Shown piece by piece: positions 22,450 to 28,406 of a stretch of DNA of 53,493 nucleotides. Within the stretch, counting starts at the first letter, position 1. Each line of letters opens with the position of its first letter. The notes under the pieces were generated by a model, which had not been told where the DNA came from, searched no databases, and saw nothing but the letters and a program-made list of their open reading frames with translations. The stretch comes from an uncultured Oscillospiraceae bacterium (GTDB taxonomy: Bacteria > Bacillota > Clostridia > Oscillospirales > Oscillospiraceae). The stretch covers positions 1 through 53,493 of the forward strand of contig CALWYP010000107.1 in NCBI GenBank assembly GCA_944385795.1, given 5' to 3'. A program made the position numbers and the translations under genes.

Positions 22450-22902
22450 TCAGTCGCCGACCGCGGCGTAGCTGTTCTCGGCTTTGGCCCGGCTGTGCGC
22501 GCGGCGGCGCGTGGACGCCAGGGCGGCTATGACGCTGCGGCGCGTGACTATACCGCAGAAGCAGCCGCGGTCGTCCACGATAGGTACAAAGTTCTGCTGC
22601 AAAACGGCGTTCACGACCTCTTCCTCCCCGGCGGCTATGCCAAGCGGCGGGCAGAAATCGGAGCGCACGAGGTCGCGTATCCGGTAGCGCTCCTGGTTCT
22701 TGAGCGTGCAGCTCCCGCAGGAGAGCAGGTGCCAGAGGAAGTCGCCCTCGGTAATGCAGCCTATGTATTCGCCGTGCTCGCCAAGCACGGGTATCGCCGT
22801 GTAGCCATGGCGGCGCATGACCTCCAGGCCCTGCCGGACGGTGTCGTCAGCGCCTATGTAGGCGGTCATGGCCTTGGGTGTGAGAATTTTAGGTATGTTC
22901 AT
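22450..22902 (-). CDS. CBS-pair protein (DarB/YkuL-like)
   Basis: A 150-aa protein made almost entirely of two CBS motifs (about residues 8-60 and 72-128), with characteristic GYTAIPVLGEHGEYIGCITEGD and VPIVDDRGCFCGIVTRRSVI strands split around the pair, plus a basic C-terminal tail. Stand-alone CBS pairs of this size include the c-di-AMP-binding DarB (YkuL) of Bacillus, which contacts Rel and pyruvate carboxylase. That assignment is an inference from size and motifs. The start has GGAAGG upstream. The promoter is preceded by two tandem 11-bp repeats. Confidence 0.8.
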   Translation of the reverse strand: MNIPKILTPKAMTAYIGADDTVRQGLEVMRRHGYTAIPVLGEHGEYIGCITEGDFLWHLLSCGSCTLKNQERYRIRDLVRSDFCPPLGIAAGEEEVVNAVLQQNFVPIVDDRGCFCGIVTRRSVIAALASTRRRAHSRAKAENSYAAVGD

Positions 22903-24302: not shown

Positions 24303-25100
24303 TTAGGCGCCGAGCAGCACGCGGTCGGTGAGGAGGTCCTCGCCGGCGGCCATGGAGAAGCGGGCGAGCAGGCTGTCGACGGTGAGGCGCTTTTTCTCCT
24401 CGCCGGAGATGTCGAGGACAATGCGGCCCTCGCTCATCATGATGAGCCGGTTGCCGTGCTCTATGGCGTCGCGCATGTTGTGGGTGACCATGAGGGTGGT
24501 GAGGTGGTTCTCTTCAACTATCTCGTCGCTGAGCTCGAGGACGCGCGCGGCGGTGGCGGGGTCGAGCGCGGCGGTGTGCTCGTCGAGGAGCAGGAGCCTG
24601 TGCTGCACCATGCTCGCCATGAGCAGGGTGAGGGCCTGGCGCTGGCCGCCGGAGAGCAGGCCGGCGCGGGAGGTCATGCGGTCCTCAAGGCCGAGGCCCA
24701 GCCGGGCGAGCTGGTCGCGGAAGCGCTCGCGCTCGCTCTTCCTTATGCCGGGGGCGAGGGTGCGCCGCCTGCCGCGGCGGGCGGCGAGGGCCCGGTTCTC
24801 CTCGATCGTCATTGTGGGCGCGGTGCCCATCATGGGGTCCTGGAAGACGCGGCCGATGCTGCCGGCGCGCTTGTGCTCGCTCTTGCGGGTGATATTCTCG
24901 CCGTCTATGCTTATGCTGCCGCAGTCAACGTCGAAGACGCCGGCTATGGCGTTGAGCATGGTGCTCTTGCCCGCGCCGTTGCCGCCTATAACGGTGACGA
25001 AGTCGCCGTCGTTGAGGCGCAGATCGACGCTGCGCAGGGCCGTCTTGGCGTTGATAGTGCCGGGGTTGAAGGTCTTGCAGACGTTTTTGAGTTCAAGCAT
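24303..25100 (-). CDS. ABC importer ATP-binding protein (TrpZ-type)
   Basis: A 265-aa ABC ATPase energising the importer: Walker A GGNGAGKST near residue 38, a Q-loop in RVFQDPMMGT, signature LSGGQRQAL, Walker B LLLLDEHTAALDP and the switch His in VTHNM. The start at 25100 overlaps the permease stop by 8 bases and has AAGGAGG just upstream; a longer in-frame extension would overlap the permease and has no ribosome site. It pairs with the single permease, so the transporter probably uses homodimers of each. Confidence 0.9.
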   Translation of the reverse strand: MLELKNVCKTFNPGTINAKTALRSVDLRLNDGDFVTVIGGNGAGKSTMLNAIAGVFDVDCGSISIDGENITRKSEHKRAGSIGRVFQDPMMGTAPTMTIEENRALAARRGRRRTLAPGIRKSERERFRDQLARLGLGLEDRMTSRAGLLSGGQRQALTLLMASMVQHRLLLLDEHTAALDPATAARVLELSDEIVEENHLTTLMVTHNMRDAIEHGNRLIMMSEGRIVLDISGEEKKRLTVDSLLARFSMAAGEDLLTDRVLLGA

Positions 25101-26058
25101 TGTTCTTTTCCTCCTTGCTGGCGGCGCGTCTGGCCGCGGCGGCTGCGGCTTTGCCCTTCCAGTACGGTATGGCCAGGAAGAGCGCAACTATGAGCGCGGT
25201 GAAGAGTTTGAGGTCGTTCGTGCCCAGGCCGAGCCGGAGCACAATCTGGATAACGAAGTAGTAGGCTATCGCGCCGACCGTGCAGCCGATCAGCCCGGTC
25301 AGCACCCTGCCCTTGTTGCGCAGGAGCACTTCGCCGATTATCACGGCGGCGAGGCCGATCACTATAGCGCCGCGGCCCATGTCCACGGAGCTGCTGCCCT
25401 GGTACTGGGCGAGCAGGCCGCCGGCCAGGCCGACCATGCCGTTTGAAATCATTAAGCCTACGACGGTGGCGCTCGCCGTGTTTATGCCCTGGGCCCTGGC
25501 CATCTGCCTGTTCGCGCCCGTGGCGCGCAGGGCGCTGCCGTGCTCGGTGTTGAAGTACCAGCACAGCAGGGCTACAACCACGACGGTGATGGGTATCATT
25601 ATAACGATGGGGTTCTGAAGTATGTTCTCCGCGAAGTCGCGCACATAGCGGCTGGAATGTATCAGCGTGAATTTGTCCACGCTTATGGCCAGGGTGGCCT
25701 GGGTCCCGGCGCTGGTGCCCCAGCCCATTATCCGGAGGTTGATTGAATAGAGGGCAAGCTGTGTCAGGATACCTGCCAGTATCGCGGGTATGCCGCACTT
25801 TGTGTGGAAGAGGCCGGTGACCAGGCCGGCTACCATCCCGGCGAGCATGGCGATAAGCGTTGCGAGCCAGACGTTTACCCCGTTGAGCGTGAGCAGGACG
25901 CAGACCGCGCCGCCGAGGCCCAGCGTGCCGTCGACCGTGAGGTCGGCAATGTCCAGCACGCGGAAGGTTATATACACGCCCATGGCCATCAGGCCCCAGA
26001 TAAGCCCCTGTCCGGCGACGCCCGGCAGGGAATTGATTAGCGATTGCAGGAAATCCAT
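25093..26058 (-). CDS. ABC importer permease (TrpY-type, BPD_transp_2)
   Basis: A 321-aa integral membrane protein with eight to nine hydrophobic helices and the branched-chain-type permease segments RVLDIADLTVDGTLGLGG, GIPAILAGILTQLALYSIN and RATGANRQMARAQGI (the coupling loop before ISNGMVGLAGGLLAQYQG). It ends in a basic Ala-rich tail. It lies between the first binding-protein gene and the ATPase gene. Family members act with PF04392 binding proteins. Confidence 0.9.
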   Translation of the reverse strand: MDFLQSLINSLPGVAGQGLIWGLMAMGVYITFRVLDIADLTVDGTLGLGGAVCVLLTLNGVNVWLATLIAMLAGMVAGLVTGLFHTKCGIPAILAGILTQLALYSINLRIMGWGTSAGTQATLAISVDKFTLIHSSRYVRDFAENILQNPIVIMIPITVVVVALLCWYFNTEHGSALRATGANRQMARAQGINTASATVVGLMISNGMVGLAGGLLAQYQGSSSVDMGRGAIVIGLAAVIIGEVLLRNKGRVLTGLIGCTVGAIAYYFVIQIVLRLGLGTNDLKLFTALIVALFLAIPYWKGKAAAAAARRAASKEEKNNA

Positions 26059-27224: not shown

Positions 27225-27257
27225 AAAAAAACGGCCCCGCCTTTCAAGGCAGGGCCG
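27225..27257 (-). terminator. Attenuator terminator in the aromatic importer leader
   Basis: On the minus strand CGGCCCTGCCTT pairs with AAGGCGGGGCCG (one G-U pair) and is followed by seven T residues (27225-27231). It lies between the leader peptide stop (27277) and the first binding-protein start (27156), as expected for a conditional terminator. Confidence 0.85.
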
Positions 27258-27276
27258 TCGTTGCTGGTTTAAACGC

Positions 27277-27435
27277 TCAGCAGGCCGCTTGTCTTGTCAG
27301 GCTTCTCTGGAATGTCTGGTAAAAAAAGTAAAAGTAAAAATAGACAAAGCCAAAGAAGCCCGCAAAGGAATTGCGAGCCTGGGCGCAGAGGGAGACGGAG
27401 AGCATATTGCTGCGTACAGTGACGTTGCTGGCCAT
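27277..27435 (-). CDS. Phe/Tyr-rich leader peptide
   Basis: A 52-codon frame with a near-ideal ribosome site (GGAAAGGAG, about 8 bases from the ATG). Within residues 24-42, nine Phe and four Tyr make up 13 of 19 residues; the densest part is YFYFYFFY (32-39). The peptide is not an obvious signal or toxin and ends 20 bases before an intrinsic terminator that precedes an aromatic-type ABC importer. By analogy with the pheL and trp leaders of enterobacteria, ribosome stalling on Phe/Tyr codons should prevent the terminator. The competing antiterminator fold is not clear by eye. The alternative is a small membrane peptide. Confidence 0.72.
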   Translation of the reverse strand: MASNVTVRSNMLSVSLCAQARNSFAGFFGFVYFYFYFFYQTFQRSLTRQAAC

Positions 27436-27477
27436 GCTTTCAATCTCCTTTCCGGCTTGCGCCGAGTTCTTGCAACT

Positions 27478-27506
27478 AAAATAACGCTTTGTGGTGCAAA
27501 AGTCAA
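27478..27506 (-). promoter_or_regulatory. Promoter of the leader peptide and importer operon
   Basis: On the minus strand TTGACT (27501-27506), 17-bp spacer, TATTTT (27478-27483). The predicted start near 27471 leaves about 35 bases before the leader ATG, a typical attenuator layout. Confidence 0.75.
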
Positions 27507-27654: not shown

Positions 27655-27692
27655 AAACCATGTATAGCATAAGCATCCGGGGAGGGTGTAAT

Positions 27693-28406
27693 TTGAAACG
27701 CAAGGCAAAGAGATACTCGTGGGCGAAGGTGCTGCCCATATATATATTTGTGCTGGCCTGGCTTGTCTGCGCATTTATATTCCCCATGTATAAGATGTGG
27801 GGCCTTGCGGCGAGCCTGCTCGTCTCGGCACTGTGCTGCGGCGCCGCGGCGGCGCTGCTTCCGCGGTATATAAAGGAGCCGGAGCCGGAGCCCGAGCCGG
27901 AGAAGAGGGCGGAGCCCGCCGCGAAGCCCCTTGACCCGGAGACGGCGGCGGTGGTCGAGGAGGGGCGCGCGGCCATAAAGGAAATGGGCCGGCTCTACGC
28001 CTCCATACAGTCCGGCGAGGTGCGCAGCCGCATAAACGAGCTCATGCGCATTTCGGACAAGATAGTCCAGGACGCCGCCGACGACCCGTCCGACGTGCCG
28101 GAGATACGCCGCTTCCTCGACTACTACCTGCCCACGGTCATAAAGCTGCTGCACGCCTACGACCGCATGAGCGGGCAGGGCATTGACGGCGACAACCTCA
28201 GCAGGGGCATGAGCAGCATAGAGGAAATGCTGGATACGGCCGTCGACGCCTTCAAGAAGCAGCTCGACGGGCTGTTTGAGGACCAGGCCCTGGACATCGA
28301 GACCGACATAGAGGTCATGAACCGTATGCTCGAACGCGAAGGCCTTACTGGCGAGGACGGGCAGGACACTATAATAAAGGCGGCCCGTTCGGGGCAGAAC
28401 CAGTAA
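27693..28406 (+). CDS. xpaC: XpaC-family membrane protein (PF10112)
   Basis: A 237-aa protein with two N-terminal transmembrane helices (about residues 14-56), a Pro/Glu repeat linker (EPEPEPEPEK) and a helical cytoplasmic domain of the 5-bromo-4-chloroindolyl phosphate hydrolysis family, including RFLDYYLPTVIKLLHAYDRM. The TTG at 27693 is chosen because GGGGAGGG ends 8 bases upstream; an in-frame ATG at 27660 has no ribosome site and would lie at the predicted transcription start. XpaC genes are commonly beside telA, as here. The enzymatic role suggested by the name is doubtful. Confidence 0.85.
   Translation: MKRKAKRYSWAKVLPIYIFVLAWLVCAFIFPMYKMWGLAASLLVSALCCGAAAALLPRYIKEPEPEPEPEKRAEPAAKPLDPETAAVVEEGRAAIKEMGRLYASIQSGEVRSRINELMRISDKIVQDAADDPSDVPEIRRFLDYYLPTVIKLLHAYDRMSGQGIDGDNLSRGMSSIEEMLDTAVDAFKKQLDGLFEDQALDIETDIEVMNRMLEREGLTGEDGQDTIIKAARSGQNQ

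Follow-up and report, generated by a model that had tools for sequence, protein, structure and literature searches.

The best-known amino-acid attenuators, among them trpL, pheL and ilvL, control biosynthetic operons by means of a leader peptide in which the regulatory amino acid is abundant, mutually competing RNA hairpins and an intrinsic terminator, with the stop codon of the leader lying near region 2. The same features occur together in an uncultured Oscillospiraceae bacterium, on a stretch of 53,493 nucleotides (GenBank assembly GCA_944385795.1, contig CALWYP010000107.1; hereafter the window), where a short open reading frame (ORF) rich in phenylalanine (Phe, F) and tyrosine (Tyr, Y) codons and a terminator precede the operon of an ATP-binding cassette (ABC) importer. 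In contrast to the classical cases, this leader belongs to an importer, carries codons for both Phe and Tyr and is found in Clostridia, and its predicted antiterminator also uses the loop and apex of the terminator. From the sequence comparisons presented here, we regard it as very probable that the leader is a ribosome-mediated transcription attenuator which senses the charging of Phe and Tyr tRNAs and controls an importer of aromatic amino acids.

In Gram-positive bacteria, among them Clostridia, ribosome-mediated attenuation has been predicted or has found support, namely for the His leaders of hisS*/hisZ in bacilli (PMC2965389), for his operons of the Bacillus cereus group, Peptostreptococcaceae and Erysipelotrichales (PMC9413887) and for the Leu-rich ilv attenuator of Staphylococcus aureus (PMC5794164). 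These cases concern other amino acids and biosynthetic or synthetase genes, a distinction drawn from their descriptions and not from their sequences. The uORFC-13-1 motif before aroF in Acholeplasma has likewise been proposed to hold an upstream ORF with Phe codons ahead of a terminator (PMC8632094); it shares with our locus this arrangement and the aromatic pathway, but serves a biosynthesis gene in another lineage and has a U run that codes for at least one Phe (the likeness is again one of description, not of sequence). Lastly, the trpXYZ operon of Streptococcus suis (PMC9382623) is a TrpX-type importer under leader-RNA control by the imported amino acid, although there the device is a T-box for Trp and here a leader peptide with Phe and Tyr codons. 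Our literature search, which covered few subscription papers, found in the text available no Phe/Tyr leader before this type of importer. A preliminary description of the locus had likewise known of no account of the element, and this stands, whereas for His and Leu, leader-peptide attenuation as such had been known or predicted in Firmicutes before.

On the minus strand, a promoter, a 52-codon ORF with a good ribosome site (MASNVTVRSNMLSVSLCAQARNSFAGFFGFVYFYFYFFYQTFQRSLTRQAAC; ATG at 27435), a strong terminator and the importer operon follow one another (Table 1). All these parts had been listed in the preliminary description, including the 13 Phe/Tyr residues within a run of 19, and all are present; only the 12-bp stem it gave for the terminator differs trivially from our scan, which counts 13 pairs before the seven T. 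The leader RNA is more stable than its shuffled versions by 26 kcal/mol on average (z -5.3, 0 of 200 shuffles). Region 2, formed by the last ORF codons, is complementary both to region 1, further upstream in the ORF, and to the terminator.

From these parts we infer the following course of events. RNA polymerase would start near 27471 and transcribe the leader ORF, and the hairpin P1 within it may serve as a pause hairpin, keeping polymerase and ribosome in step. With ample Phe- and Tyr-tRNA, the ribosome would reach the stop codon and cover region 2, so that the terminator forms and the importer is off. When Phe- or Tyr-tRNA is short, the ribosome would stall at the first Phe codons (24-30) or at the first Tyr codon (32) and separate region 1 from region 2, and the freed region 2 could pair with the 5' arm, loop and apex of the terminator, giving read-through. 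A leader that is not translated would be expected to pair region 1 with region 2 and thus to terminate.

The arrangement is conserved throughout what appears to be the genus of the window genome, Candidatus Scatomorpha. Of the genus genomes in which the upstream DNA is assembled, all 12, counting that of the window, carry a leader ahead of the PF04392 gene; G008 lies outside this count, its importer gene being cut by the contig end. Among 12 relatives in the genus, 10 have a leader-peptide match at E<=4.5e-6, and a profile search added the leader of G010, whose PF04392 gene is only about 48% identical, together with second, tandem leaders in G009 and G002, which brings the genus total to 14 leaders with the two tandem ones counted. 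In both G009 and G002, the PF04392 genes form a tandem pair with a separate leader for each gene; the first leader is nearly pure Phe (RQARFFFAGFFGFTF) and the second Phe/Tyr. All 14 leaders retain the start codon and an open frame, and 12 have an AAGGAG-like ribosome site, the two Phe-biased tandem leaders having a weaker GTGAGG.

Beyond the genus, a search by the leader itself reaches little: a leader-peptide profile run over 400 genomes of the family matched in 31 at E<=0.1, with only nine members of the genus below E 0.003, and a strict DNA pattern run over 200 genomes had hits in the window and G007 alone. Distant leaders were found through the importer genes instead, with at least 79 relatives from a contig scan and two additional searches that contributed 30 and 21 loci. 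For counting, we used 112 distinct importer upstream regions of 330 nt and a filter for short ORFs preceded by a Shine-Dalgarno (SD) site with at least five F/Y in 12 residues. Twenty of the 112 regions passed, the window included, compared with one of 112 on the antisense strand and a mean of 0.45 in shuffled sequence (maximum 2 in 20 rounds). Among ten residue groups, F/Y alone exceeds its shuffle maximum, with HQ and GA merely equalling theirs at 5 or more. Five of the 20 regions belong to the genus and 15 lie outside it; in two of the latter (L079 and L107) the ORF begins ahead of the likely promoter, and these were set aside as probably spurious, which leaves 13 plausible leaders outside the genus. 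F/Y-rich, SD-preceded short ORFs followed by terminators occur in several Oscillospiraceae and in other Clostridia, with the F/Y content retained and the sequence varying (YYYYYY, FYYYFYF, RYYRYYFF, FAAYRFSYYF). The filter also misses real cases, such as GTG starts, weaker runs and L117 (MKKRMTVQ...RFYFFTFIFTQPP...), which failed on the ribosome site and stands outside the set used below. Where a promoter-like site lies at least 200 nt upstream, an F/Y leader is present in 22 of 25 distinct regions by our reading, L081, L119 and L130 having no clear one.

For the tests of RNA structure we compiled 33 leaders, 14 from the genus and 19 others. The latter were chosen for their F/Y-rich frames, which makes the counts of terminators and pairings dependent on that choice. 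Four leaders in the set (L078, L103, L110, L134) are weaker or start with GTG. L123 is labelled as a Spirochaetaceae metagenome-assembled genome that is possibly mis-binned. A terminator follows the leader, ahead of the importer gene, in 33 of 33.

Within the genus, region 2 has the consensus GCCUGACAAGAC...GGCC and can pair either with CAGGCU of region 1 or with the 5' arm, loop and apex (region 3) of the terminator. The six core pairs of regions 1 and 2 form in 12-14 of the 14 leaders, and regions 2 and 3 make 8-11 of 12 column-consistent pairs in every one of them. P1 (GCUCGC/GCGGGC) keeps all six pairs in 14 of 14 leaders, with a compensatory change from G-C to U-A in three genomes (CGC/GCG to CUC/GAG) that turns Arg into Leu and Ala into Glu, and similar hairpins (GYYCGC/GCGGGY) are found in 10 of the 19 leaders outside the genus. 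We also compared region 2 with the RNA made before the terminator is complete: its duplex energy with this unfinished terminator is better than the dinucleotide-shuffle mean in 33 of 33 leaders and reaches p<=0.05 in 21 (12 of 14 in the genus, 9 of 19 elsewhere).

The leader thus has a translatable ORF with regulatory codons, a terminator before the first gene and, by computed pairing, an antiterminator that uses region 2. To follow the competing structures, each leader was folded up to the start of the terminator 3' arm under a crude ribosome footprint (P site -13 to +16), either with helices spanning the ribosome allowed or with pairing restricted to the RNA downstream of it. Without a ribosome, region 2 of the window leader forms about 20 pairs with the RNA upstream and next to none (0.3) with the terminator; with the A site at codons 24-33, about 14 region 2:terminator pairs form (14 at F27), and with the ribosome at the stop codon none. 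The codon placement in this leader would accordingly suit an attenuator, as the modelled ribosome masks region 1 when stalled and region 2 when at the stop. Across the set, in 32 of 33 leaders and in both versions, region 2 makes more terminator pairs with the ribosome stalled at the first F/Y codon of the densest run than with the ribosome at the stop codon, an effect due in part to the ribosome at the stop covering region 2. With downstream-only pairing, the same stall exceeds the ribosome-free state in 30 of 33, and F/Y codons exceed other codons in 28 of 33.

Several results nevertheless weigh against attenuation as proposed here. With spanning helices allowed, the last two counts fall to only 24 and 21 of 33, respectively, and in 12 of 33 leaders, including both tandem leaders of G009 and the second of G002 (G009a, G009b, G002b), the untranslated RNA already forms at least 12 region 2:terminator pairs. 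In the window, stalls at codons 35-38 give no terminator pairing and would favour termination. Pairs 6, 7 and 11 of regions 2 and 3 form in just 5, 7 and 5 of the 14 genus leaders, and cognate pairing barely exceeds pairing between swapped leaders (mean 9.36 versus 9.03 of 12; permutation p 0.0024, which ignores relatedness and includes one hand-placed gap in G006). Twelve of the 33 region 2:terminator pairings miss p<=0.05 in the test on the unfinished terminator, which was itself designed after the outcome for the whole terminator had been seen; there, p<0.05 was reached in 10 of 33 only (median z -1.05, two z above 0), in our opinion because GC-rich pieces also pair with the terminator 3' arm. 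Finally, 92 of the 112 importer upstream regions have no such leader by the filter used, and related sequences are not independent trials.

From our point of view, these points leave attenuation the strongly preferred reading. The preliminary description had seen classical ribosome-mediated attenuation in the layout and had named an alignment of related upstream regions and covarying alternative hairpins as checks. That alignment reveals an F/Y run and a terminator conserved in the genus and recurring in other Clostridia, and complementarity plus some covariation supports the alternative of 1:2 and 2:terminator pairing, all of which argues for the mechanism.

Three other explanations can be imagined. 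An arrest peptide, in which the F/Y-rich nascent chain would stall the ribosome on a ligand or drug and tRNA charging would be irrelevant, could account for the well conserved peptide core of the genus, FAGFF[GS]Y.YFYFYF. It is very unlikely in our judgement, since outside the genus the F/Y content is kept and the sequence is not, the conserved non-aromatic residues overlap RNA arms (P1 in the case of QAR..AG, region 2 in that of SLTRQ), and the change in P1 affects both of its strands and replaces two residues. Marginally less likely still is that the U-rich stretch is an untranslated RNA element, for instance a protein or small-molecule switch, with its UUU and UAU codons incidental. The conserved RNA arms would suit such an element, as would G004, where the region 2 bases are kept despite a differing reading frame; yet the start codons, frames and ribosome sites conserved in the genus speak against it, the F/Y signal is almost limited to sense-strand, SD-preceded ORFs, and no Rfam family reaches its cut-off at the leader locus. 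The idea that the ORF product is a small (membrane) protein with a function in the importer, as its hydrophobic stretch and conserved start might suggest, is the least credible of the three, given leaders of down to 18-19 codons in other clades and the terminator that invariably separates leader and importer gene.

The operon behind the attenuator candidate corresponds to the PF04392 type of aromatic amino-acid importer (TrpX/CD0873), with a substrate-binding protein (SBP), a BPD_transp_2 permease and an ABC ATPase. The best-matching solved sequence for the first of its two binding proteins, SBP1, is 6hni, i.e. CD0873, a Clostridioides difficile lipoprotein that binds tyrosine (PMC6816091). 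That source attributes specificity for Tyr to a Glu, which is Ala in the proteins binding Phe and Trp, and specificity for Trp to a Gln at the position of a Tyr. Transferred through the SBP1-6hni alignment, these roles fall on residues that SBP1 shares with CD0873 (E268/Y284), making its pocket Tyr-type and lending support to the earlier proposal of Phe and/or Tyr as substrate. Among 145 aligned SBPs (duplicates included), 139 have the Glu/Tyr and 6 an Asp/Tyr pocket, and the Trp-type Gln occurs in none. The Asp-type proteins are SBP2 of the window (counted twice), those behind the Phe-biased leaders of G009 and G002 (G009a, G002a), and L147/L148, whose leader is likewise Phe-rich. This suggests that the Asp-type pocket goes with a Phe-rich leader, in two or three independent cases. 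In G009 (L021) and G002 (L022), the Phe-biased leader precedes a gene with an Asp-type pocket and the Phe/Tyr leader one with a Glu-type pocket. Loss of an ABC transporter of C. difficile lowers uptake of Tyr and Phe (PMC5951980), which makes that system a counterpart of the importer predicted here; the two C. difficile reports appear to concern the same locus.

Table 1. Features of the leader locus and importer operon (positions in the window).
Feature	Position	Strand	Remarks
Sigma-A type promoter, TTGACT-17-TATTTT	27478..27506	-	similar promoters 220-370 nt ahead of the SBP gene in leader-carrying relatives
CTTT-N8-AAAG inverted repeat, candidate operator	27487..27502	-	overlaps -35 box and spacer
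Leader ORF, 52 codons, SD AAAGGAG	27277..27435	-	13 Phe/Tyr in residues 24-42; conserved in genus
Region 1, CAGGCT	27376..27381	-	codons Gln19-Ala20; complementary to region 2
Hairpin P1, GCTCGC/GCGGGC, candidate pause hairpin	27358..27378	-	in leader ORF
Region 2, AGCCTGACAAGACAAGCGGCCTGC	27280..27303	-	final eight ORF codons; complementary to region 1 and terminator
Region 3, terminator loop and apex	27239..27250	-	partner of region 2
Intrinsic terminator and U-tract	27225..27259	-	hairpin 27259-27230; run of seven T ending at 27225
SBP1, PF04392	26134..27156	-	lipoprotein-like signal; Tyr-type pocket (E268, Y284)
Permease, PF02653 BPD_transp_2	25093..26058	-	
ABC ATPase, PF00005	24303..25106	-	
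SBP2, PF04392	23155..24105	-	Asp replacing the Tyr-contacting Glu
CBS-domain protein, end of gene run	22450..22902	-	operon membership likely from strand and order

The promoter may provide a second layer of control. Ahead of importer genes, 20 of 61 promoter-like sites have a CTTT-N8-AAAG inverted repeat, a pattern picked after viewing these promoters, compared with none of 65 such sites at other places in the 79 loci. The repeat represents a candidate operator of some regulator. It stands at fixed promoter spacing with or without a leader, in the window as in L056-L134. The divergent neighbour gene (27660-28406, plus strand) belongs to Pfam family PF10112.

As the preliminary description had noted, no T-box is visible: the window yields none in a scan at the Rfam cut-off, nor does its contig in a search at E<=0.001. 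The same holds at Rfam's curated cut-off for same-strand T-boxes directly upstream in 71 scanned loci of the at least 79 relatives, where weak T-boxes could be missed because six of the seven matches in the window genome itself fall below that cut-off; at L105, a T-box lies close to the importer gene on the other strand. The seven matches of the window genome (E<=0.001) comprise one above the cut-off, before valS, and others ahead of a MetN-like ATPase, a tryptophanase/tyrosine phenol-lyase family enzyme, a TrpB-like enzyme, a putative cysE ORF followed by cysS, thrS and, at 63.9 bits, pheS. With a T-box match at pheS and a leader at the importer, the cell seems to use both devices. The match before the tryptophanase/tyrosine phenol-lyase family gene (G000:C38:22422-22680, L190) would place a T-box ahead of a catabolic gene, which we judge unusual. 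T-boxes also occur 2-3 kb downstream of three importer genes with F/Y leaders (L072 6700-6943, L095 7091-7337, L110 6881-7126).

The importer should be vital to these bacteria, given that prephenate dehydratase (PF00800) was found in 0 of 13 genus genomes, compared with 14 of 14 controls, and chorismate synthase in searches of the 13 only in G010. PDH_N was above its cut-off in 0 of 13, with one weak match in G010. At a completeness of 76-97%, single absences mean little, but the pattern of missing enzymes across the genus predicts aromatic auxotrophy.

Overall, leader-peptide attenuation appears to extend to aromatic amino-acid import in gut Clostridia, members of a phylum in which T-boxes are the more familiar device, and this points to substrates for ABC importers that are otherwise vaguely named. 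One could speculate, with more reserve than for the window itself and at rather less than even chances, that the leaders form a widespread clostridial class of Phe/Tyr attenuators working beside the apparent T-box of pheS, and that the codon mixes of leaders before paired SBPs predict their ligands. For ribosome-mediated attenuation the ribosome must keep pace with RNA polymerase; whether it does so in Firmicutes is disputed following work on Bacillus subtilis, and the leader makes this question of coupling testable. If the reading is true, the spread of the class would mean tight coupling of transcription and translation at these genes in Clostridia.
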